Positions 9,075-41,394 of a stretch of 64,000 nt of DNA are shown here, piece by piece (within the stretch, counting starts at the first letter, position 1; every line of letters starts with the position of its first letter). The notes below the pieces were generated by a model, which was not told the DNA's origin, made no database searches, and was given only the letters and a program-made list of their open reading frames with translations. The stretch covers positions 186,001 through 250,000 of the forward strand of contig JABTUS010000005.1 of assembly GCA_015075305.1 (NCBI GenBank), in the 5' to 3' direction. This DNA is from Opitutaceae bacterium. GTDB lineage: Bacteria > Verrucomicrobiota > Verrucomicrobiia > Opitutales > Opitutaceae. Both the position numbers and the translations under genes were made by a program.

Positions 9075-12000
9075 GGATTCCTTCCCAGCTCCTCGTAGTA
9101 TTTGCGGACCGATTCCGTGAATCGCGCGGGAACGGGATCACGGTCCACAGGCAGCAGCGAATCACCGGAGTTCCGACGGGCCAGCTCCTCGCTGATGCGG
9201 TCGCGCACCTCGACGAGCGGACGCAGGATTTCGGCGCGCACCACGGCCCAGTCGGGCTTCGTTCGGTCATGCCGGTACTCCTGACGCATGCGACGCGCGC
9301 GCTCCCGCGCCGTCGCAACCGCATCGCGCAACTCCCGATCATCGAGCACATCCTCAACCTCGCGCAGACCGTTCACCCAGGGACCATACTCGTCGCCCAT
9401 GATTGGGCCGCCATCGTTCGACGAAAAGTCCGCCCGGGGATCCGCCCGTCCGCGTCCGTCCAGCAGGCGATTCAGCTCGAATCCTCCGCGACGCGCGCCC
9501 TCCGCCCTCCCCGCCTGCGATCCGCCCGCCCGGGATCCGCCCGCCTGCGCCAGCTCAATCTCACTCGCCTTACTGGGAGAGCCAGCCTGTTCGGACCGGG
9601 CTTCCGCGTCACTCCTGGAACCGCCCTTAGCTCCTTTTCCGCCTCCCGGTGCGTTCTCCTTGCCGGATTCATTCCTCGAACCCTCCGCCTGCGCTAGCTG
9701 GCCCGCCTCTTCGGAGGCTTTTCCGGATTCGCGCATCAACTGTTCCGTCAGTTCGTCGAGCTGTTTCTGCGCATGGCGCAGCGCCTCGGCGTCGTCCCCA
9801 AGCACGCTGCCGGCGGCCTTCTCCACGCCGCGTCGCAGCTCCGCGACTCCCGCGCCGGCCTTCTTTTCCGCGTTGAGCGCCTGCGGCAGATAGCCTTCGC
9901 GCAGAAGTTCCGATGTCAGGTCAAACGCCTGTCCGCCCTCGCGCTGCTGCGTCTCCTTCAGGCGTTCATAGAGGGATCGTGTCATCATGCCTTCCGCCAG
10001 CAGATCCTGCTGCATCTGCTTCGAAACGTTCGCATCGTCCTGGCTGACTTTGCGAAGGCTCTCGTAAAGCTGTCGCGAAACCAGTGGCTCCGTATGCTCG
10101 GCCTGCTCCGAAATTTCTGTCGCGCGTTTCACGACCTGCTCCAGGCGGTCGCGCTGGCCCTTCAGTTCCTCGGCCAGTTGCTCGCGCTCGGACTTGTCGG
10201 ACAGGGACTTCCTCGCCGGATCGGCCAGCCCGGAAATTTTCTCACCGATCGCCTGCTGCCGCCGCTCCAGTTCGCGCGCCTCGCCGCGAAGCTCGCGCAG
10301 TTCCTCGGAGAACTGGCTCGAGTTCTCCTTGCGCAGCGAATCCCGCATGCCCTGAAGTTCCCGCTGGGCGCGCGTGCCCGCGGCCAGCGCCTGCGAGACC
10401 GCTCCCTCGCCCGACGCGTCCGCCGAACGCTGGAGTTCCTGGCGCGTCTGCTCGAGCTGCCTGCGCTCGTCGGACATGCGGGACTGGTTTTCCGGGCGGT
10501 CCATGCGCTGCCGCAGATCATCGACGTCCGCCAGCATGTCGCGCTGCTCCTCCTGCAGGCGCTTCAGTTCGCGGCGAATCTCCTCGCGTTTCTCCTCGGA
10601 GCGCGCCTCCTGAAGCGCCGTCTGCAGTTCCTTCAGCCGCTCGTTCACCGCCTCCTGGCGCTGCGCAAGCTCCTGGAGTCGGTTGATCGTCTGAACCTGC
10701 TCCCGACGCTGCGGATCCTGCATCGAACGGGCCTGCCGCTGCGTCTCATACCGGTTCTCCGACTGAGCCAGGTCCAGTTGATCCAATTGCTGCTGGTTGC
10801 CCTGACCGCCCTGTCCGCCGCGGCGGCTCCGGCTGCGGGAGATGCCCGTCTCGTGCTGCTGGAGGCTGAGCAGGCCCTGGTAGGCGGCCTGCTCGGAGGA
10901 CAACGCCACGCGCAATTGCTGCGGCGCGGCCTCCGAATCGTTGAGCTGGCTGGCCGCCGTCTCCATCGATTTCACGACACCGCTCCACAGCGCCGCGTCG
11001 GCGGGACGCGGACTCTGCTCGGAGGCCTCGCGCGCCTGATTGAGCGCCTGGGCCTGCGAATCCCGCACCACCCGGACATCCTCTGCGTAGGTCTTCCCCG
11101 TGGGATCGCGCTGCAGTTTCCAGGTCGCCGACATGATCTGCTTCTGGAGCTCCGTGAGTCGCTGGGCATTGCCCATCTGACCCATTTGATCGCTCTCCAT
11201 ATTCTCAGCCTGCATGCCCGTCTCCTCGCGGAAGATCTCATCGAAGGGCCGCACCTCGCCAAAATAGAGGTCGCTCGTCGTCCGACGCACCTGCCCGTCC
11301 GGACCGATGTCGTCAGCCCACAGATGCCAGGAAATAAGCGTGTCCGGCTTCAAGTGGAGATCCTCGAGGCGCAGGAGGCGGCTGAACGACCGGCGGTCCC
11401 TCGGCGTGGAGTCGCGTCCGAGTTCGATCGACTGCGGCTCTTCGCCGCCAATGGAATACGCCAGTCCATAACTGGGACTGCCAAAGTCATCCCAGACCGT
11501 GCCCTGAAAGGAAATCTCCTCCAGCGGCGACGGACGCAGGTCCCCGCGCGGAGAGACCAAGCGCAGTTCCGGTCGGCGGTTTGGTTGGACTTCGATGACA
11601 AACGATGCCGGGAGTTTGTTCGCCCGCCCGTCGGCATCCTTGAGATGAAGCTCATACGTCATCGAGCGTTCAAACACCCGTGCCGGAAGCATCGCGACCG
11701 CCTTGTCCTTCGACGGCACCAGCGCAAGTTCGCCTCCCTCCTTGTCGCGCGCAACGAGTCTGGCCTCGGCCACAGGCTTGTTGAGCTGGAGTGTGAGTCC
11801 AATCCGCGCGCCCTCCACCGCGCTCAGGCGGCGCGTGTCCTCGATGCGCTTGGGCTCCTGTCGCGTATACGCGGGGAATTCAAGCTCGGCATCCGAGCGC
11901 TCGAGTCGCGGAAACTCAAAGACGGTGACCGCATACTCCCGGGATGCCTGGTCGCCGTAGGCGATTCTGTAGCGCAGATTCTCGGTCACATCGGCGATCG

Positions 12001-12712
12001 TTCCGCCAAACACCGGATCCGAGAGGCTTCTCACCAGGGGAACGGTTCTCTCCGGTTTTCCCGACTCGCTCACGATCAACTGCGCATGCCCGGGAACGCT
12101 GCCACCGAATCGCGCCAGCACGACCAGCGTTTCCCCGCGCTCGATCGCGGTGTCACCCGGCGTCACACTGAGTCCCACCGCCATCGTCTTCCGCCCCGCC
12201 TCCAGGCGCGGCAGCACGCGGTCGACGTTGACCATGACAACAATCAGCACCACCAGAGCTGCAGCCTGCGCGAGATGCGCGGCGCCAATCTGCCAGCCGG
12301 GCACGAGGCGCCGCCAGTTTCCCTGTGAACCCTTTTCGATCGCCGCAGCCAGAAGCTCCTGCTGCAAAAAATTCCGCGGACGCCCCTCGGCATCGGGCTC
12401 CTGCTGCACGGCGGTGAGAATGAGTCCGTTCAACGTGGAGTCTGACTTTTCCACGCGCTGCGCCAGGTCGCGATAGTCCGGGCGCGCCAGGAGTCGCCGG
12501 ACAAGAATGCCTGCCGCCCCTGCAATGGACAGCGCGGTCACAACCGACAGCGTGCCGCCGGCAGCCCAGCCGAGTCCATGCGCGGCGATCAGCGCAAGCA
12601 CACCGACGCCGGCCCCGCCGAGCCATACGGCCGCGAGTTCCCAGCCAAGACGGCGCAGCCGCAGGCGCTTGAACACAGCGCGCAGTCTCTCGCGAAGAAA
12701 CACGTCCATCAT
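9071..12712 (-). CDS. large DUF4175-like membrane coiled-coil protein
   Basis: Taking the ATG at 12712, which sits in the ATGATG overlapping the upstream TGA, the protein has 1213 residues. Hydrophobic segments near residues 20-65 and 140-160 anchor it. They are followed by beta-rich extracytoplasmic sequence to about 500, and then a very long Gln/Arg/Glu-rich region (about 520-830 and beyond) that reads as extended coiled coil. The C-terminal part is low-complexity Gly/Ser/Ala. Such proteins accompany MoxR/BatA/DUF58 operons. It is likely an envelope scaffold; no enzymatic motif was seen. A longer start at 12817 would run far into the neighbour and is less likely. Confidence 0.65.
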   Translation of the reverse strand: MMDVFLRERLRAVFKRLRLRRLGWELAAVWLGGAGVGVLALIAAHGLGWAAGGTLSVVTALSIAGAAGILVRRLLARPDYRDLAQRVEKSDSTLNGLILTAVQQEPDAEGRPRNFLQQELLAAAIEKGSQGNWRRLVPGWQIGAAHLAQAAALVVLIVVMVNVDRVLPRLEAGRKTMAVGLSVTPGDTAIERGETLVVLARFGGSVPGHAQLIVSESGKPERTVPLVRSLSDPVFGGTIADVTENLRYRIAYGDQASREYAVTVFEFPRLERSDAELEFPAYTRQEPKRIEDTRRLSAVEGARIGLTLQLNKPVAEARLVARDKEGGELALVPSKDKAVAMLPARVFERSMTYELHLKDADGRANKLPASFVIEVQPNRRPELRLVSPRGDLRPSPLEEISFQGTVWDDFGSPSYGLAYSIGGEEPQSIELGRDSTPRDRRSFSRLLRLEDLHLKPDTLISWHLWADDIGPDGQVRRTTSDLYFGEVRPFDEIFREETGMQAENMESDQMGQMGNAQRLTELQKQIMSATWKLQRDPTGKTYAEDVRVVRDSQAQALNQAREASEQSPRPADAALWSGVVKSMETAASQLNDSEAAPQQLRVALSSEQAAYQGLLSLQQHETGISRSRSRRGGQGGQGNQQQLDQLDLAQSENRYETQRQARSMQDPQRREQVQTINRLQELAQRQEAVNERLKELQTALQEARSEEKREEIRRELKRLQEEQRDMLADVDDLRQRMDRPENQSRMSDERRQLEQTRQELQRSADASGEGAVSQALAAGTRAQRELQGMRDSLRKENSSQFSEELRELRGEARELERRQQAIGEKISGLADPARKSLSDKSEREQLAEELKGQRDRLEQVVKRATEISEQAEHTEPLVSRQLYESLRKVSQDDANVSKQMQQDLLAEGMMTRSLYERLKETQQREGGQAFDLTSELLREGYLPQALNAEKKAGAGVAELRRGVEKAAGSVLGDDAEALRHAQKQLDELTEQLMRESGKASEEAGQLAQAEGSRNESGKENAPGGGKGAKGGSRSDAEARSEQAGSPSKASEIELAQAGGSRAGGSQAGRAEGARRGGFELNRLLDGRGRADPRADFSSNDGGPIMGDEYGPWVNGLREVEDVLDDRELRDAVATARERARRMRQEYRHDRTKPDWAVVRAEILRPLVEVRDRISEELARRNSGDSLLPVDRDPVPARFTESVRKYYEELGRNP

Positions 12713-14820
12713 GGCGCGACTCCCTCCCCGGCGGCGACTGACATTCGACGTGCCCGCGCCGCGATGATCGTTTCCGTGAGCAGCACCGCAAGGGTTGCCG
12801 CAATGAACCACCGCCACAGTTTCTGGCTCCCTTCGATCTCGACCGCATGCCTGGAGGCCGGCGCGTCGGATCCGCCGCCGCCCGTTCGCACTCCCGTCAC
12901 GTTCTTCGCCGGCACTCCGAGTTGCTCCAGGTCGTCGAGCGACAACGCCTCCGTTCTCGATTCGCCAGGATCCAGATTCACCATGAACCGCATCTCGTTT
13001 CCGTCACCCTCGACGCGATAGATCCCGGGTAGCCTTGTCGCGCTGAAACTGCCGGTTCCCGGTGCGACCGTTTGCCGCCGTCCATCGGCGGACACCATTG
13101 TCAGGGGCTTCGTCGAAGCCGGCAGCGGAAGCGCGTCGCCGACAAAAAACTGCGAGATTTCCGGCCGGGTGACATTCGCGTAGTCCATCAGCGACCAAAC
13201 GAGCGGCACGAACTTCGTGGACACGGCGAGCTGGCTGTCCTGGGGCTGCCAGCCGGACGCGAGCCAGAGAATCCGCCCCCTGCCAAGCGGAATCTCCATC
13301 AATGCCGGGTCACCGGAGTCGAAGCGCGCGAGCACACGGGCGTTCGCAAAGGCGGCCTGATCCAGGTGGCGGTATTTCCAGAAGTGGATCTTCGTGAAGT
13401 CCGAATAGCGGGGATCCGCAAACGGAGCGAAAATCGGATGCGTGAAATCAATCTCGCCCAACATCGCATAGCCGCCGGCCGCCGGCTTGATTTCCGCCGC
13501 CGCCATCGCCACGCGCGCGAGCGCCAGCGCCAGCGCCGTGGCATCCTCCGGCGACCTCGGCGCCACGAGCAGCGTCCTGCCGGATTCGATCCACGACCTC
13601 AGCGCCGTTGCAGTTGAGATCGACGTCGCAGCCGTCAGGAAGCCGGCCTCAATTGTTCCCGCTTCGGATGCGAGCGCCTGCTCCGCGCCCTGGGACCGCA
13701 CGAGTTCGACCTGCACCCGCGACGACGATTCCAGCGCCCGTTTGAGAAAGTAGAAGGGCTGGGTCGGATCCGCCGCATCCTCGACGCCAAAATAGCCGAT
13801 GCGCAGCCGTTGCCTCTCGGGCGGCACGACAAACACGGTGTTGTCAAACGCCGCGCCATCGCCGCTGAGTTCGATCCTGTCGACGCCATCCGTGTCGCGC
13901 GGCGGCTCCATGGTCACGATGCGCGACTGGCCGGGCGGAACATAAACCGGAACCGGTTTGCCGACGGCGTTCGCGCCGCGTTTCCACACAAGCATGAACT
14001 GGTCGGCCGTGGCGTCGCTCGTATTGGAAACTCGGATACGAATGGGAGTTCCACCCCTGGCATCCGCGGCCGCGGCGCCGGCGAGCAGTTGCACGCCGGC
14101 GTTGCCGACGCGCACGGGCCGCGCGGTCGCCACCCGGAGCTGCACAGCTGCGGGCCACTCATACGCCTGAAGCGCCTCCAGACGGCTGCCCGCCTGGACA
14201 TCACTCACAAGCACCACCTCCCGGGATCCGCCATCCTTCCCCTCCTGATCGACATCGTCGAAAGCCTCCGCGGCGGTCACCAGCGCCTCGCCGAGCCGCG
14301 TGCCCTCCCAGGTTGGCGCGAGGCTGGCCAGCCGCGCGCGCGCCAGCGTGGCCCGGGCGTCGGGCGGCGTGGAATCCCACTCGGAAAATTCAAGAACCAT
14401 CCTCGCCTCGCGGCCGAAGGCGATCACCGCAAGGTGGTCCAGGGGTCGCAGGGAGCGAATCACCTCGTCCGCCTTGAAGAGCGCGTCGGTCCACAACCCC
14501 TCCCGCTGCAGGCTCGCGCTCGTGTCGAGCAGCAGAACAACCTGGCGCGGACGCTCCGCGAGAGGGACGATCGCTGAGTCGTCGCTGAGAAACGGACGCG
14601 CAAAACCGAACGCAAGCAGGATCAGCGCAAGGCAGCGCAGGGTCAGCAGCAGCCAGTGCTCCAGCCGGCTGCGCCGCTTCAGGCGCGGCGCTGTCGGAGC
14701 CAGAAACATGAGCGAACTGAAGGGAGTCCGGGTGCGGGTGGCCCGGCGCGAGAGGTGAAACAACACCGGCAGCGCGATCGCGAGCCCGCCGAGGATGAAG
14801 AGCGGGGTGAGAAAACTCAC
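12709..14820 (-). CDS. BatA-like protein with VWA domain
   Basis: A GTG start at 14820 overlaps the TGA of the DUF58 gene (GTGA) and gives a 703-residue product beginning SFLTPLFILGGLAIALPVLFHL, the standard BatA N-terminal helix. A second helix follows at about 55-75. The VWA domain begins with the MIDAS-type motif VVLLLDTSASLQREG (Asp near residue 99). A last helix is near the C-terminus (WRWFIAATLAVLLTETIIAA). It is probably inner-membrane with a periplasmic-facing VWA domain that binds a divalent metal, working with the MoxR ATPase encoded upstream in the same operon. Confidence 0.8.
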   Translation of the reverse strand: MSFLTPLFILGGLAIALPVLFHLSRRATRTRTPFSSLMFLAPTAPRLKRRSRLEHWLLLTLRCLALILLAFGFARPFLSDDSAIVPLAERPRQVVLLLDTSASLQREGLWTDALFKADEVIRSLRPLDHLAVIAFGREARMVLEFSEWDSTPPDARATLARARLASLAPTWEGTRLGEALVTAAEAFDDVDQEGKDGGSREVVLVSDVQAGSRLEALQAYEWPAAVQLRVATARPVRVGNAGVQLLAGAAAADARGGTPIRIRVSNTSDATADQFMLVWKRGANAVGKPVPVYVPPGQSRIVTMEPPRDTDGVDRIELSGDGAAFDNTVFVVPPERQRLRIGYFGVEDAADPTQPFYFLKRALESSSRVQVELVRSQGAEQALASEAGTIEAGFLTAATSISTATALRSWIESGRTLLVAPRSPEDATALALALARVAMAAAEIKPAAGGYAMLGEIDFTHPIFAPFADPRYSDFTKIHFWKYRHLDQAAFANARVLARFDSGDPALMEIPLGRGRILWLASGWQPQDSQLAVSTKFVPLVWSLMDYANVTRPEISQFFVGDALPLPASTKPLTMVSADGRRQTVAPGTGSFSATRLPGIYRVEGDGNEMRFMVNLDPGESRTEALSLDDLEQLGVPAKNVTGVRTGGGGSDAPASRHAVEIEGSQKLWRWFIAATLAVLLTETIIAARARRMSVAAGEGVAP

Positions 14821-34561: not shown

Positions 34562-34728
34562 ATGCGGCCACGTTACCGGGGCCGCGGGTTTGAGCTAGGG
34601 AAAAATTTTGGCCGCCCCCCGCGTCGGCGCGCGCCGCGCGTTCCCGGCCCTTCGGCCGCCCGCACCTGATGCAGGGCCTTCACAGCCATCAGCTTTCATG
34701 CTATTGTGTCGATAATTCACCCGTGCCC

Positions 34729-36282
34729 ATGAGCGACCAAAAGGAACTGCTGACAACGAATCGAAAGGCGCTGACCGTTAATCTCGACGACGCGAAGTAT
34801 GGAACATTTGCTGAAATCGGTGCAGGGCAGGAAGTTGCACGCGTCTTCTTCCAGGCCGGGGGCGCGGCGGGCACGATCGCGAAGACCATCTCGGCCTATG
34901 ACATGACGTTCAGCGACGCCATATACGGCAAGTCCGCGCGATATGTTTCGCGGGAGCGCCTGGGCCTCATGCTTGAGCACGAGTTTGACCTGCTGCGCGA
35001 AAGGCTCTCAGCACAGCGGGGTGAAAAGACCACGTTCTTCACCTTTGCCGACACCGTTGCCGCGAAGAGTTTCAAGGGGAACAACGAGTGCCATGGATGG
35101 ATGGGCATTCGGTTTCAAACGGAGCCCAACTCCGAGCCGAGCGACATTCTCATGCATGTGCGCATGTGGGACAAGGAGAACGTCCTTCAGCAGCAGGCCC
35201 TCGGCATCGTCGGCGTGAACCTCATCTACGGCGCCTTCTTCTACCGCGATGATCTCAAGAAGCTGATCCGCTCGCTCAGCGACAATGTCGGTCAGGATCG
35301 CATCGAGGTCGACATGCTCAAGTTCAGCGGCCCGGCCTTCGCGCATGTCGACAACCGGCTGACCTCTCTGCACCTCGTGGAGTTCGGGCTCACCAACGCC
35401 GTGATGTTCGGTCCCGGCGGCGATGTTCTCCAGCCATCGGAGGTGCTCTACAAGAAGGCGATCCTCGTTGAGCGCGGCAGCTTCCGTCCCGTCACCCATG
35501 TCAATGTCGACATGCTCAACTGCGCCTGCGCACAGTTTGTGCAGGAGCCTCTCGTCAAGGGCAAGGACACCGTCGTGCTCATGGAGATCACCATGAACAA
35601 TCTCCTTGCCGGCGGGGACATCGACGCGCCGGATTTTCTGTCGCGCGTCGATCTGCTCGCCGACATTGGCCTGACGGTGCTGATTTCGAACTACCCCGAG
35701 TACTACCGCCTCACCTCCTACTTCCGGCGCTACACCAAGGAGATGATCGGCGTGCCGATGGGCATCAACAACCTCCTCGAGGTGTTCAACGAAAAGTACT
35801 ACGAGGGCCTCGAGGGCGGAATCCTGGAGGCGTTCGGCCGCCTGTTCCGAAACTCGGTCAAGCTCTACATTTACCCGATGCACCAGAGCGCCTATGAGCA
35901 CTACATCGCCTCCGTGCAGGAGAAGACTGGCGCCCAGATTTCAACCGCCCCCAATGCCTTTTCCTCCGGCGTGCTCATCACGGCGAAGAACCTCCAGGTC
36001 GCGGATCGCCTGCGCAACTTGTACGCCCACCTGCTGGAAAACCACTACATCGACAGCATTGTCGGCTTCGATCCAAGCATCCTGAACATTTTTTCGCGCG
36101 ACGTGCTCCAGCGCATCAAGGACAACGACCACTCCTGGGAGCGCCTGGTCCCCGAGCCGGTCGCGATGGCGATCAAGAAGCGCCGGCTTTTCGGCTACAC
36201 AGGCGCAGCGCCGGCGGAGCCCGACGGAACCCGGCGCACCGCGGGTGTCGACGTGTCAGACCCTCTCGCGGGACTGGTCTGA
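34729..36282 (+). CDS. conserved protein of unknown function
   Basis: The start at 34729 (MSDQKELLTTNRKALTVNLD) gives 517 residues. The upstream ATG at 34669 adds only a Cys/His-rich tail with no family character. The protein is soluble, without signal or helices, and strongly patterned (TFAEIGAGQEVARVFFQAGG, AGTIAKTISAYDMTFSDAIYG, VTHVNVDMLNCACAQF, MGINNLLEVFNEKYYEGLEG). I recognise it as a conserved bacterial family annotated inconsistently, but I cannot name a reaction. The gene stands alone, divergent from sppA. Confidence 0.75.
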   Translation: MSDQKELLTTNRKALTVNLDDAKYGTFAEIGAGQEVARVFFQAGGAAGTIAKTISAYDMTFSDAIYGKSARYVSRERLGLMLEHEFDLLRERLSAQRGEKTTFFTFADTVAAKSFKGNNECHGWMGIRFQTEPNSEPSDILMHVRMWDKENVLQQQALGIVGVNLIYGAFFYRDDLKKLIRSLSDNVGQDRIEVDMLKFSGPAFAHVDNRLTSLHLVEFGLTNAVMFGPGGDVLQPSEVLYKKAILVERGSFRPVTHVNVDMLNCACAQFVQEPLVKGKDTVVLMEITMNNLLAGGDIDAPDFLSRVDLLADIGLTVLISNYPEYYRLTSYFRRYTKEMIGVPMGINNLLEVFNEKYYEGLEGGILEAFGRLFRNSVKLYIYPMHQSAYEHYIASVQEKTGAQISTAPNAFSSGVLITAKNLQVADRLRNLYAHLLENHYIDSIVGFDPSILNIFSRDVLQRIKDNDHSWERLVPEPVAMAIKKRRLFGYTGAAPAEPDGTRRTAGVDVSDPLAGLV

Positions 36283-36375: not shown

Positions 36376-37227
36376 ATGCGCTTCGCCAAGTACCACGCCC
36401 TCGGAAATGACTACCTGGTGCTGAATCCGGCGGACTTCCCGGCCTGGCGGGAGCCCTCAACCGCGCAGATTCGCGTCCTTTGTCACCGCAATTTCGGGGT
36501 CGGTTCCGACGGCATTCTCTGGGGCCCCCTGCCCTCGCGCGACAGCGATTTCGGTCTCCGCATTTTCAACCCCGACGGCTCGGAGGCCGAAAAATCCGGC
36601 AACGGTCTGCGGATTTTTTCACGCTACCTTTCGGACCAGGGTCTGGTCAGAAGCCCCGTGTTCACCGTGGAGACGCCCGGGGGGCGGGTCCGCTCGGAGC
36701 TCAAGGACTCCGGCAGGCTCATCACCATCGACATGGGTCGGGTCAGCTTTTCGAGCGGCAGAATCCCCGTAACCGGTCCCGAGCGCGAAGTGATCAACGA
36801 ACGCGTTCGGATCCAGGATCGGGAATTCACATTCTGCGCCGCGACCATCGGCAATCCCCACTGCGTTATCCCGCTTCCCGAAGTGTCCGCGGATCTGGCG
36901 CGTCGCTACGGCCCGGATCTGGAGGTCCATCCGTCATTCCCGCGCAAGACCAACGTGCAGTTCCTGCAACTGCTCGACCGCCGGAACATCCGCATCGAAA
37001 TCTGGGAGCGCGGCGCCGGCTACACCCTGGCCTCGGGCAGCAGCTCCAGCGCCGCCGCCGCGGTCGCCCGCCGGATGGACCTGATCGATGAGCGGGTCAC
37101 GGTGCACATGCCGGGCGGAACCCTCGACATCGAAATCGCCCCGGACTTCGCGATCCGGATGACCGGCACCGTCAACAAGGTCGCCGACGGCTCCCTGCAC
37201 GGCGAGCTCTTCGACGTGACGGTCTGA
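36376..37227 (+). CDS. diaminopimelate epimerase-family protein lacking both catalytic cysteines
   Basis: The 283-residue protein is a full-length DapF homologue: KYHALGNDYLVL, FGVGSDGILWG, RIFNPDGSEAEKSGNGLRIF, TIGNPHC and ERGAGYTLASGSSSSAAAAV. In DapF two cysteines act as acid and base (Cys73 and Cys217 in E. coli). Here they are Ser74 (EKSGNG) and Ser220 (LASGSS). The rest of the substrate-binding Asn/Arg/Glu pattern is kept. It may be a different racemase/epimerase or a low-activity form. A canonical dapF would then be expected elsewhere. Confidence 0.85.
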   Translation: MRFAKYHALGNDYLVLNPADFPAWREPSTAQIRVLCHRNFGVGSDGILWGPLPSRDSDFGLRIFNPDGSEAEKSGNGLRIFSRYLSDQGLVRSPVFTVETPGGRVRSELKDSGRLITIDMGRVSFSSGRIPVTGPEREVINERVRIQDREFTFCAATIGNPHCVIPLPEVSADLARRYGPDLEVHPSFPRKTNVQFLQLLDRRNIRIEIWERGAGYTLASGSSSSAAAAVARRMDLIDERVTVHMPGGTLDIEIAPDFAIRMTGTVNKVADGSLHGELFDVTV

Positions 37228-37282: not shown

Positions 37283-38791
37283 GTGTCCGGCTGGTTCGCT
37301 GATTTTCTCCGATCGATCGGGTCACTGCTTTACTGGAATACCCGAAAATCCCTGTTCCGCCTCCGCGGTGCGCGGGGGCAGGCGCCTTGTCAGAACCCCA
37401 GCGATTCGGGCCGCGCCTTTGAAACCGGGTGCGATGCCTGCCTCCAATGGAGAAAGCCGCGCCGTTTCCGCCACGTGTGCCCGCTGCTCGTGCAATCGCC
37501 GGGTGGCGCGCCCACCTGCTCGGTTTCCGCGGACAACGTCAGGCCCTTCTGGCTGCGGGCGGTGGCGTTTCTTGGACTAGGATCCCTGGGAGCGTACCTG
37601 CTGATCGCCACGCTCGCCTTCCTTTTTCTGAAGCAGCGTGGGTACGAACTCACATTCGCCACCGTGGCCCTGCCCTCGCGCTGGGCGCATTTTCCCGAGA
37701 TCCAGGCGCGGCTGTTCTTCAACAAGGGACGCGAGGCCTACGCCGACGGGCGACTCAATGAAGCGGTGCTGGCGTTGTCGCTCGCCTACGAGCGCTCGCC
37801 GGAGAACTACGAGGCGGGCGCGCTGCTCGCCTGGATCTGGCAGGCGTCCCAGCCCACGCTGTCGAACCAGATCTATCTTAAACTCCTGCGCTCGCACCCG
37901 GAGCGCCGCACGGAAACGGCCCAGCGCTGGTACCGGATTCTGCTCAACCGGGGCGACTTCGAATCCATCGCCCAACTCTCCGTCGAGCAGCTCACAGCGA
38001 GCTCATCGTCGACCGCAGCCTGGCTCTACGCCCTGCTGTTTGCCTCGCACCGCATGCCGGATGCCCGACTCATCGAAAAAGCGATGGAACGCTCGAGCGG
38101 TTTCGCGCCGGAAGTGCGGGATATCCTCGCCCTCGAGCAACGCTTGCAGTCGCCCGATCGCGGGAAGGCGGTGACTTCGCTCCTCAGCATTGACCCGGCA
38201 GCGACGCCGACCCCTCTCGCGCTCTTCCATCGCATCGATGCCCTGATTCGACTCCGCCACGGGAGGGATGCGCTTGGTCTACTCAGCGCGCATGGCGACA
38301 GCCTCGACGAGCGGTCCCGCGCATCCCTCAGGCTCGGCGCGCTGGCCGCCGTCGGCGACACCGAGGGACGCCGGGGCGAAATCGAGCGGCTGCTGAAGCC
38401 GGGGACGTCCCTTGCGGTCGTCGAGTTTGCCACTGCCAATCTGATCCGTTTTCCCGAAGCCAGCCTGATACAGGACTACCTCGCCCTTTTGGAAAAACGC
38501 CCGCTCGCCGTTTCTTCCGAAAACTTCGGCGCCTATGCCGGATTGTTCTGCCTGGCGGCGATCTCCAGCGATTCAACCCGCACCCAGGTGTTTGCCGAAG
38601 TGCTTCGACAGATCTCCGGATCCCCGCTCAACTTCCTCGACAGCATCGAGCATTTTTTCCAAGGCAATGCGGAGGATCAGAGGCTGACAACCTGCCTCTC
38701 GCGACTCCAGTCCCTGCCGCTTGAGGTGGTATATGCCCTGTATGAGCGTGCGGGAGCGAAACGCGAGGCCGCAGGGAAGGGCGCACCATGA
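37283..38791 (+). CDS. zinc-ribbon/TPR membrane protein encoded with exosortase
   Basis: The 502-residue protein (GTG start) has four cysteines before the membrane segment, at 36, 50, 53 and 66, that could form a small zinc ribbon. One helix follows (about 92-117), and a long helical TPR-like region runs from about 125 to the end (FFNKGREAYADGRLNEAVLALSLAYERSP is clearly TPR). The stop overlaps the exosortase ATG (ATGA), so the two are translationally coupled. I infer a role in the exosortase pathway, perhaps as an assembly or recruitment factor; no known family name can be given. Confidence 0.6.
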   Translation: MSGWFADFLRSIGSLLYWNTRKSLFRLRGARGQAPCQNPSDSGRAFETGCDACLQWRKPRRFRHVCPLLVQSPGGAPTCSVSADNVRPFWLRAVAFLGLGSLGAYLLIATLAFLFLKQRGYELTFATVALPSRWAHFPEIQARLFFNKGREAYADGRLNEAVLALSLAYERSPENYEAGALLAWIWQASQPTLSNQIYLKLLRSHPERRTETAQRWYRILLNRGDFESIAQLSVEQLTASSSSTAAWLYALLFASHRMPDARLIEKAMERSSGFAPEVRDILALEQRLQSPDRGKAVTSLLSIDPAATPTPLALFHRIDALIRLRHGRDALGLLSAHGDSLDERSRASLRLGALAAVGDTEGRRGEIERLLKPGTSLAVVEFATANLIRFPEASLIQDYLALLEKRPLAVSSENFGAYAGLFCLAAISSDSTRTQVFAEVLRQISGSPLNFLDSIEHFFQGNAEDQRLTTCLSRLQSLPLEVVYALYERAGAKREAAGKGAP

Positions 38792-40386
38792 GCAGGCGCG
38801 CCGCAGAGGCGGGCCGGACCGCGTTTCCCCGATCCTCCAGTCTCGCCCTGGCGCTGGCATTGGTCTGCGTCCTCCTGCTGGCGTGGATCGTATTCATGGT
38901 GCCTGAGTGGTTTCGCAATCCCGACCTTTCGCACGGGCTCGTCAGTCCGCTCCTCATGGCGATCCTGCTTCGCGAGGCGCGCACGCAGACCTACGCCGGC
39001 TACCTTTCATCGGGAGCCAATGCGGTTGCGCTGGTCACTCTGCTCGCTGCATCGCTGGCGATTTTCCTGTTCGCGGGCCTGATGGCGGCGGCGCTTTCCT
39101 GGTCCAACGATCTCACACTGTTTCTGATCGGCGCAGCCCTGAGCCTGCTCTTGATCGCGATCTGGGTGGTGTGCGCGCGCGACGAGTGGCGAGTGCTGCC
39201 ATTCGCCTGGCCCGCCTTTGTCGCCTGCCTCGTGCCGATCCTGAGTTCGCCGTTCCCACCAGGAACCTACTCACGGCTGACGCTTGCGCTACAACTCGCG
39301 GTCACCCGCGGGGTCATCGGTGCACTTCATGTCCTTGGCATTCCCGCGAGGCAGAGTGGAAACATCATTGAGCTGGCCGGCGCGCGCGTGGGAATCGAGG
39401 ATGCCTGCAGCGGCATCCGCAGTCTCATTTCCTGCGTCGTCGCGGCGCTTTTCTTCTCGGGCACACTCGTCAGCCGTCCCCTGGCCAGGATCGTGCTCGT
39501 TCTGGTGTCGGTGCCGCTCGCGCTCGGCATGAACTTCATCCGCTCGCTCGGACTTACCCTGGCCGCCGAGCGCGGGGTCGACATCGGCGGAGCGATTCAC
39601 ACCCTTTCCGGTTATGCGGGACTGCTGGTCTGCGCATTCCTGCTGGCGCTCATTGCGCGAGGCCTTGGACGACGCCCCCCGCTCTCCTGTCCGAATGTTT
39701 CCGCGGGCAATCCGCCATCGACCGCGCTTCCGCGCGTGCTCCTCGCAGGCACCGCGCTCGCGGCGGTTTCGCTGCTCTTTTTCGTCCTGAAAACGCAGCC
39801 TGCCGCAACCACCCGCCAGCCTGCGCCCGATCTGGCTACGATTCTGCCGTCCGCCTATCCGGGATGGAAGGTTGAGACCACGGAGGATCTCTACCGGTTT
39901 TCCTCCACGCTCCAGACCAACAACCTTGCGCAGCGCACCTATCTGCGGGAGACCGCCAGCGGCATTGAGCGACTCACGATCTATCTCGCCTATTGGGCGC
40001 CGCATCAGGCGTCCGTCAGCCTGGTGGCATCGCACACACCGGACGCCTGCTGGCCGGGCGCCGGATGGAAATCGCTCGAGGAACGCGCCTCGCGGGCGCC
40101 CGTCAGCGTCGGCAGCCACGCCCTGCCTTCCGCCGAATACCGGACCTTCCAGCAGGGTGCCACGGTGCAGCATGTCTGGTTCTGGCACCTCCATGACGGG
40201 CAGCCCGTGACCGACACCGATCCCTTTTCCCCCCTCAAGCTTGCGCGATTGATCCTCCGTCACGGCGTGCAGAGCGAGTCGTCGCAACTCTTCATCCGCT
40301 TCTCAAGCAACGCCGCCTGGCCCGCGCTCGCCGCCGAGCCTCTGGTCGCGGACATCGTTCATCGGCTGCGGCCCTATGGACTCTGA
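38788..40386 (+). CDS. exosortase fused to EpsI domain
   Basis: The first 290 residues form the multi-helix exosortase with the transpeptidase-like triad: Cys207 (GIEDACSGIRSL), Arg252 (MNFIRSLGLTL) and His271 (GAIHTLSGYAG). Residues about 320-532 are an EpsI domain with HTPDACWPGAGW (416-427). Exosortases process C-terminal PEP-CTERM sorting tails during export of envelope or exopolysaccharide-associated proteins. No PEP-CTERM protein was seen in the window, so its substrates are encoded elsewhere. Confidence 0.93.
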   Translation: MSRRAAEAGRTAFPRSSSLALALALVCVLLLAWIVFMVPEWFRNPDLSHGLVSPLLMAILLREARTQTYAGYLSSGANAVALVTLLAASLAIFLFAGLMAAALSWSNDLTLFLIGAALSLLLIAIWVVCARDEWRVLPFAWPAFVACLVPILSSPFPPGTYSRLTLALQLAVTRGVIGALHVLGIPARQSGNIIELAGARVGIEDACSGIRSLISCVVAALFFSGTLVSRPLARIVLVLVSVPLALGMNFIRSLGLTLAAERGVDIGGAIHTLSGYAGLLVCAFLLALIARGLGRRPPLSCPNVSAGNPPSTALPRVLLAGTALAAVSLLFFVLKTQPAATTRQPAPDLATILPSAYPGWKVETTEDLYRFSSTLQTNNLAQRTYLRETASGIERLTIYLAYWAPHQASVSLVASHTPDACWPGAGWKSLEERASRAPVSVGSHALPSAEYRTFQQGATVQHVWFWHLHDGQPVTDTDPFSPLKLARLILRHGVQSESSQLFIRFSSNAAWPALAAEPLVADIVHRLRPYGL

Positions 40387-40914: not shown

Positions 40915-41394
40915 TCACGGCGTCACCCTATGTGGGCGGGATTCGTTCGTGCGATCGTGCGTCTTGTTGAACCAGATCGAGAACCGCTGCTTGAGCAGCT
41001 TCATGAACTGCGAAACATCCCCCATCAGTGCGTTCTGTCGATTTCTCCACGCCACAGCCTCAGGACCATTCGCCTCCAACTGCGCTTTGACGACCTCCAA
41101 CCGCGTCATCTGATACCGCGTTGGACTTGAATAGAGGACATGAAATCGTCTGAGCAACTCATCATCCGGAATGAACGTCTTCCGCGGCACCTTCACCAAG
41201 ACATGAAAATGGTTGGTAAGGATTGCATACGTGACAACCCGAACGCCGCAGCAGTCCGCCACCTGCCACAACTGTTTGCGCAACACATCCTTTGCAACGT
41301 CATTAAGCAACATCTCCCCATCCACGGACCGAGTCATGCACTGATAGATTCCCTCGCATTCCTCCGCCACGATCTTGATGCGACACCCTCTCAT
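40915..41394 (-). pseudogene. RAYT-like (Y1/HUH) transposase, C-terminally truncated
   Basis: The 159-residue frame matches the N-terminal two thirds of REP-associated tyrosine transposases: TRSVDGEMLLND, CCGVRVVTYAILTNHFHVLV with the HUH motif (HFH), LLRRFHVLYSS and FMKLLKQRFSIWFNKTHDR. The family then continues with a GTLWEERF-like segment and about 100 more residues, which are absent from all three frames. At the RYxxYFN-like position, where the catalytic Tyr would be expected, only RFSIWFN is present. It is probably inactive. It lies 350 bases from two REP copies of the type it could have mobilised. Confidence 0.75.

Follow-up and report, generated by a model that had tools for sequence, protein, structure and literature searches.

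The window analysed here, a stretch of 64,000 nucleotides from an Opitutaceae bacterium (contig JABTUS010000005.1), encodes a homologue of the diaminopimelate (DAP) epimerase DapF in which serine replaces both catalytic cysteines. We propose that this protein is probably the DAP epimerase of the cell, belonging to a stable Ser/Ser subfamily with a retuned active site, in which Ser74 and Ser220 would move the proton. Judging from sequence, the novelty would lie in the catalytic residues, the fold, the substrate site and the probable role as DapF being known. Among the papers listed by our literature searches, judged by title and start of abstract and including few subscription journals, none describes a natural Ser/Ser DapF. 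The features concerned are the following:

34669..36282, plus strand: upstream neighbour of 537 aa, matching neither Pfam nor NCBIfam; listed for context.
36376..37227, plus strand: Ser/Ser-clade dapF homologue encoding 283 aa, ATG start, matching TIGR00652 and PF01678; AF2 model with a mean pLDDT of 93.9.
36592..36594, plus strand: Lys73 codon, adjoining Ser74; conserved as Lys in 162 of the 163 distinct Ser/Ser proteins, mostly Met in Cys/Cys proteins.
36595..36597, plus strand: Ser74 codon (TCC), aligned with the first of the two catalytic cysteines (Cys75 of Anabaena DapF).
36613..36615, plus strand: Ile80 codon; all 163 distinct Ser/Ser proteins have Ile here, at the position of a third conserved Cys in Cys/Cys DapF (98-100%).
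37033..37035, plus strand: Ser220 codon (TCG), aligned with the second catalytic cysteine (Cys224 of Anabaena DapF).

Both family models recognise the protein well above their cut-offs, TIGR00652 with 228.8 bits (cut-off 114.65) and PF01678 with 182.8 bits (cut-off 34.7), the latter being the sole Pfam family found at E 0.001. The proline racemase family, PF05544, gave no match, and the model for bifunctional DapF/glutamate racemases, NF038284, scored 62.8 bits against a cut-off of 350. The closest PDB chain by sequence is Anabaena DapF (9mro, E 1e-54), on which the AF2 model superimposes over 272 residues with a Z score of 37.0 and an rmsd of 2.0, as expected of a full-length DapF fold. Against DapF chains the Z scores range from 28 to 37; the O-ureidoserine racemase 7VDY ties at the top (Z 37.5), and by sequence it matches the window protein with E 3e-32, most DapF chains scoring higher. 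Ser74, within EKSGNG, and Ser220, within LASGSSSSA, align with the cysteine pair of the solved DapF chains. The window protein departs from the PROSITE signature of the DapF active site, used here as quoted in PMC8225329, at its C only: the segment NPDGSEAEKSGNGLR fits all other positions by eye. Since both codons are ordinary serine codons, selenocysteine or any other reading at these positions is ruled out. The protein is not cysteine-free, as it retains Cys36, Cys154 and Cys163; it is the catalytic positions that lack Cys. The first-pass annotation had described a full-length DapF homologue with serine in place of both catalytic cysteines, and the open reading frame, the two family models and the fold match bear out the first part of this description, the codons and the alignment the second.

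This form is not peculiar to the window. A search of the window's genome and 37 relatives found a homologue in 34 of the 38 and none in 4; G001, a 97% complete genome of the window's own genus, is without one. The 34 proteins (one from the window's genome, the others from 33 relatives) comprise 31 Ser/Ser and 3 Cys/Cys forms (L034-L036, from G031, G016 and G021), and these three resemble the window protein distantly (68-73 bits, 29-33% identity). The class census comprised 141 genomes, the window's own included, each at least 90% complete. TIGR00652 had one match in each of 136 genomes and none in 5; the typed DapF was Ser/Ser in 35 and Cys/Cys in 101, with no mixed pair. The two forms thus apparently fill the same slot, one per genome in the class census.

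Typing of 212 genomes of the phylum, an uneven sample, gave 88 with the Ser/Ser form only, 122 with the Cys/Cys form only and 2 with both, namely G362 (10.6 Mb) and G391 (14.1 Mb), whose estimated contamination is 5 and 9%, respectively. Further matches in G254, G334, G127, G326, G153, G385 and G388, as well as the third match of G362 and G391, were left out of this typing; those in G127, G326, G153 and G385 may be pieces of one gene. Genera g48, g128 and g180 mix Ser/Ser species with Cys/Cys species, with a single DapF match per genome. In a wider search of the phylum a match was found in 268 of 288 genomes, and 15 of the 20 genomes that gave none belong to family f61. Several genomes of high completeness, among them G001, G107, G124 and G169, and many of them from f61, have zero DapF matches, perhaps owing to assembly gaps or to another route; genomes of this kind count against our main reading.

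Outside the Verrucomicrobia, where most of the clade was seen, the Ser/Ser form occurs in some Cyanobacteria, in a Planctomycete MAG and, as a divergent homologue, in Streptomyces. A scan of genome contigs used patterns that favour the Ser/Ser form and kept the loci of the best 80 of 557 relatives, so that the finding of Ser/Ser in all 80 is no estimate of frequency. These best 80 include the cyanobacteria Westiellopsis and Dulcicalothrix and a Sedimentisphaerales (Planctomycete) MAG, in all three of which the Ser/Ser form stands beside Cys/Cys copies; such coexistence, like that in G362 and G391, counts against our main reading. Even sampling covered the window's phylum and the cyanobacterial phylum. 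In the latter, 189 of 194 genomes have a match; three matches reach at least 427 bits (G426, G173 and G487) and all are Ser/Ser, while the 27 next-best are all Cys/Cys. G487, whose completeness is not given, has a Ser/Ser match and no second DapF match. A Streptomyces plasmid homologue (L356) is Ser/Ser and divergent, and has neither Lys73 nor Tyr216. On the plasmid L404 of Streptomyces sp. NBC_01216, a divergent Ser/Ser dapF homologue at 11992-12936 lies in a row with genes for a 2OG-Fe dioxygenase, a molybdopterin oxidoreductase, an aldo/keto reductase, an aminotransferase and an ornithine cyclodeaminase family protein, which together might serve the biosynthesis of an unusual amino acid. 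Automatic annotation can mask the Ser/Ser form, the Streptomyces Ser/Ser homologue being labelled plain dapF.

The Ser/Ser rows form one clade with one origin. Rows were sorted as Ser/Ser by the letters at 74 and 220 (those of alignment A1 were likewise chosen as Ser/Ser), so residue counts at these two positions are circular and were not used as evidence; the independent evidence is the lack of mixed rows and the tree from which the motif columns had been removed. In a tree of 67 rows one branch separates the Ser/Ser rows, with an SH-aLRT support of 99 and a stem length of 1.08. When the catalytic-motif columns were removed (63 rows), 31 Ser/Ser and 32 Cys/Cys rows were again split by one branch with an SH-aLRT support of 99. 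The trees were made with a quick method and carry SH-aLRT support only, and the placement of L356, L032 and L033, which have long branches, is less sure. Moreover, the 365 aligned rows, among which the window is counted and a gene may recur, comprise 202 Ser/Ser, 163 Cys/Cys and no mixed rows; mixed Cys/Ser intermediates were sought among the rows of intermediate score, and none was found in the 365 typed.

To shift between the TCN and AGY serine codons, a gene must change two bases together or pass through a codon for some other amino acid. In 168 distinct Ser/Ser genes, Ser74 is encoded by TCN in 94 and AGY in 74, and Ser220 by TCN in 149 and AGC in 19. Both codon boxes being used at both sites, serine at 74 and 220 appears to be maintained by selection. 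Paired with 11 relatives, the window gene has dN/dS ratios of 0.09-0.33, at dS values of 0.8-1.9, near saturation. The 31 of 34 Ser/Ser proteins, the tree, the lack of mixed rows and the codons together rule out an isolated mutation or a sequencing error. The impression that homologues of the SGNGLR type recur in other bacteria is thereby borne out by the typed rows, and the recent, isolated mutation of a Cys form, which the first-pass annotation had named as what would refute its reading, is excluded by the clade-wide occurrence of Ser/Ser.

The residues that contact DAP are kept in the clade. We compared 163 distinct Ser/Ser proteins (L356 excluded) with 104 Verrucomicrobial and 42 other Cys/Cys proteins. 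Anabaena DapF is reported to contact DAP through Asn13, Gly76, Asn77, Asn66, Asn164, Asn197, Glu215, Arg216, Gly225 and Thr226 (PMC12039745), and the window equivalents are, in the same order, N11, G75, N76, N65, N160, N193, E211, R212, G221 and S222. N65, N76, N160, N193, E211, R212 and G221 are present in 163 of 163 distinct Ser/Ser proteins, and 161 of 162 have N11; at position 222, Ser occurs in 155 and Thr in 8, and G75 is invariant in an alignment of 19 rows. Of 11 contact positions compared, which take in both ends of DAP, 10 are retained, S222 being counted for Thr, and the remaining one is the Cys/Ser position. The Verrucomicrobial Cys/Cys DapF, which has the same apparent slot and keeps its cysteines, is the distant form described above and has Val at window position 160, where a contact Asn sits; the Ser/Ser form therefore has the more canonical binding site of the two. 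Among those of the 104 Verrucomicrobial Cys/Cys rows that are ungapped there (for instance L035 and L117), the Asn of the distal carboxylate is Val and Glu183 is Arg, changes that might reflect a broader or otherwise altered range of substrates.

Around this retained site the clade has residues of its own. Besides Lys73, whose exceptions are Ile in L032 and Met in L356, and Ile80, with which the third conserved Cys is lost too, they comprise Glu208 (159/163; mostly Arg in Cys/Cys), Tyr216 (158/163, the remaining 5 having His or Asn), Ser223 (163/163; mostly Gly in Cys/Cys) and Ser44 (162/163; mostly Ala in Cys/Cys). Lys73, Glu208, Tyr216 and Ser223 are each found in less than 10% of either Cys/Cys set, Tyr216 being present in some Cys/Cys DapF (L358, L359), and several of the clade-specific changes lie near Ser74 or Ser220 in sequence. 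On average, the Ser/Ser rows (197) contain 4.1 Cys and the Cys/Cys rows (147) 6.0. The earlier statement that all other motifs are kept thus holds for the substrate-binding residues and needs qualifying for changes such as K73, I80, E208, Y216 and S223. Compared with the DapF of known structure (TIGR00652, PF01678; Anabaena 9MRO, E. coli 4IJZ and H. influenzae 1GQZ), the window protein is alike in length, fold and DAP contacts and, by inference, in the location of the catalytic positions at helix N-termini and in genomic role; it differs in having Ser/Ser for the catalytic cysteine pair, Ile80 for the third Cys, and the clade-specific K73, E208, Y216 and S223.

The DNPR motif of MurE is a sign of specificity for meso-DAP. 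The window's genome (4.87 Mb, 17 contigs, 97.6% complete) encodes LysA (438.7 bits), the LL-DAP aminotransferase DapL (562.4 bits) and a MurE (522.1 bits) with DNPR, and should therefore need meso-DAP for lysine and peptidoglycan; this motif rules out a MurE of other specificity. The search for another dapF recommended by the first-pass annotation, made with PF01678, found no second DapF, its two matches being the two halves of the one Ser/Ser protein, which is thus the only DapF found in this genome. The same genome gave, at E 0.001, no match to the Ddh C-terminal domain, to MurI or to proline racemase, which rules out meso-DAP synthesis through Ddh and substitution by a proline racemase there; no other known meso-DAP route was found by the DapF, Ddh and proline racemase searches.

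For comparison of the pathway, 22 genomes were chosen, 15 with the Ser/Ser and 7 with the Cys/Cys form. MurE is present in all 22, each with DNPR, and LysA-like matches likewise, above the cut-off in 11/15 Ser/Ser (the window's included) and 4/7 Cys/Cys genomes. DapL is above its cut-off in 11/15 and 4/7, the Ddh domain is found in 3/15 and 1/7, proline racemase in 4/15 and 1/7, and MurI (TIGR00067) is above its cut-off in 7/15, the match of G011 having an internal stop, and in 0/7. A MurI match is absent from the window's genome and from 7 other Ser/Ser genomes of the 15. Since DapL, Ddh and MurI are patchy across the 15 Ser/Ser genomes, the Ser/Ser form is independent of their presence. It had been supposed that, were this the only DapF, DAP synthesis must use another route, such as the LL-DAP aminotransferase plus a further epimerase. 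DapL is indeed present here, but it does not accompany the Ser/Ser form throughout: in 4 of the 15 genomes with that form, no DapL scores above the cut-off. The further epimerase is opposed by the one-for-one alternation of the two forms, the kept DAP contacts and the lack of Ddh, which argue that the Ser/Ser protein itself does the job; the Ddh-like domain in 3 of the 15 Ser/Ser genomes counts against this reading.

The gene neighbourhood was also compared. A homologue of the 537-aa neighbour is found in the flanks of at least 52 of 109 Ser/Ser dapF loci, many of these flanks being short. Downstream, an ORF of 502 aa with no NCBIfam match (37283-38791) is followed by a gene for an exosortase-like protein whose C-terminal part is EpsI-like (38788-40386, plus strand), and an ORF at 40915-41394 on the minus strand may belong with the REP-associated transposases, which it resembles by eye. 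The collection of SGNG homologues with their gene context, proposed earlier as a check, thus yielded the homologues, but no functional clue from the neighbours.

In the mechanism that we propose, LL-DAP would bind between the two domains, its alpha-carbon placed between Ser74 and Ser220, each of which would lie at a helix N-terminus. One serine would remove the alpha-proton and the other would supply a proton from the opposite side, so that meso-DAP results. That serine is a weak base may be offset by the changes of the clade, Lys73 beside Ser74 and Glu208, Tyr216 and Ser223 near Ser220 in sequence, and Lys73 or its neighbours may lower the pKa of the two serines; as Lys73 is not universal, the role proposed for it is weak. 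The usual explanation of amino-acid racemases that work without a cofactor is a thiolate/thiol pair, and a review holds that Cys is favoured over Ser or Thr for its easier desolvation and its greater acidity (PMC8142540). Cys-to-Ser changes in DapF are reported to hinder catalysis (PMC12039745), and H. influenzae DapF C73S (2Q9H) and C217S (2Q9J), both among the fold matches of the model, are laboratory single mutants at the positions where both serines are here natural and fixed. Among relatives of DapF, PddB and HisR are each reported to have two Cys (PMC8225329, PMC11602996); engineered Cys-to-Ser PddB retained less than 0.1% activity, said to match M. tuberculosis DapF (PMC8225329), and the activity of engineered Cys-to-Ser HisR was greatly reduced (PMC11602996). 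Because the natural clade has many further changes, such mutants are not a fair model of it, yet they show the size of the problem.

These nearly inactive mutants also suit a different account of the same activity, in which the protein is a DAP epimerase whose base is Lys73, Tyr216, a bound water or another residue of the clade, the serines only placing water or substrate. The fixed or nearly fixed K73, Y216, S223 and E208, which are rare in Cys/Cys proteins, would fit this account, and Lys, Tyr and other residues are described as bases in other racemases (PMC8142540). It would leave the invariable serine at 74 and 220, reached through both codon boxes, to be accounted for, and its candidate bases are replaced within the clade, Lys73 by Ile in L032 and Tyr216 by His or Asn in five proteins, while Tyr216 is also found in the two Cys/Cys proteins named above. 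We consider this account rather unlikely, though a serious contender.

It is improbable, in our judgement, that the Ser/Ser protein has another substrate or carries out another reaction, such as elimination or isomerisation, meso-DAP then coming from an unrecognised enzyme. Precedent for altered chemistry comes from Ecl-DER and MMP0739, which are Cys/Thr racemases, and from human trans-3-hydroxyproline dehydratase, in which a hydroxyl replaces one catalytic Cys and not both; these Cys/Thr enzymes are described as one-way (for MMP0739 this is predicted) or as catalysing elimination (PMC8142540). Since the Thr replacements of one Cys include a dehydratase, a changed reaction stays a live rival. 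The extra copy in two cyanobacteria and the Planctomycete MAG, the setting of the divergent Streptomyces homologue among oxidoreductase and aminotransferase genes, and the tie of 7VDY with DapF for the best fold match point the same way. 7VDY, HisR/CntK, the proline racemase family and PhzF share the fold, as does PddB according to its paper (PMC8225329); all have other substrates and lower sequence similarity. Against a changed reaction stand the retained DAP-contact set, the Asn and Arg of the distal end included, the mutual exclusion of the two forms, one DapF per genome, across the class census, and the window's genome, which has neither a Ddh nor a proline racemase match.

Another proposal would make the protein a bifunctional DAP epimerase and glutamate racemase that also supplies D-glutamate, as in Chlamydia, whose DapF is reported to do both with PLP, a view its authors extend to PVC bacteria that lack MurI (PMC5885031). 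The eight Ser/Ser genomes in which MurI was not found, the window's among them, would agree with it, but MurI is above the cut-off in the other seven, the bifunctional-enzyme model falls far short of its cut-off here, and changing either catalytic Cys to Ala is reported to have abolished rescue by the Chlamydia enzyme (PMC5885031); we hold it to be highly improbable. That the protein is a catalytically dead relic or scaffold is scarcely credible, for the loss of both catalytic thiols is set against a low dN/dS, a clade that extends over more than one phylum with no other residue at the two sites, and its standing as the sole DapF in 35 of the 136 census genomes that have one.

In C. glutamicum DapF, a disulfide between the catalytic cysteines is reported to switch the enzyme off, and H2O2 lowers its activity (PMC5296763). 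Having no catalytic Cys, the Ser/Ser enzyme cannot make a disulfide of this type, and the loss of the catalytic thiols and of the third Cys would reduce sensitivity to oxidation and thiol reagents. Disulfide avoidance is a possible reason for the change to Ser/Ser and for the spare copy in cyanobacteria. The Ser/Ser enzyme is expected to resist aziridine and thiol-directed DapF inhibitors as well as the oxidative disulfide switch.

The Ser/Ser form is also relevant to the scarcity of DAP described in subdivision 4 Verrucomicrobia. GC/MS revealed DAP in Opitutus terrae and in three strains of Lacunisphaera, at roughly 1/10 of the E. coli level, and TLC showed no DL-DAP in the three Lacunisphaera strains, a low level and a negative result that count against our main reading even though the presence of DAP agrees with it; the portion of that report available to us gives a DapF accession for one strain, with no mention there of serine (PMC5303756). 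A Coraliomargarita genome paper restates the absence of DAP and muramic acid (PMC3035286). It is our speculation that a slow Ser/Ser epimerase contributes to the low DAP of the Opitutaceae. Tentatively, and with somewhat less than even confidence, we suggest that two serine hydroxyls carry out a cofactor-independent 1,1-proton transfer, that this evolved once and serves as the sole DAP epimerase of much of the Verrucomicrobia, and that its slowness might even account for the long-held view that DAP is missing from subdivision 4.

If a conserved Ser/Ser form occurs in nature and replaces the Cys form genome by genome, it would offer a direct test of the explanation given for the preference for cysteine. 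Either serine is capable of this demanding reaction, or an unknown enzyme makes an essential building block of the cell wall and of lysine in these bacteria.
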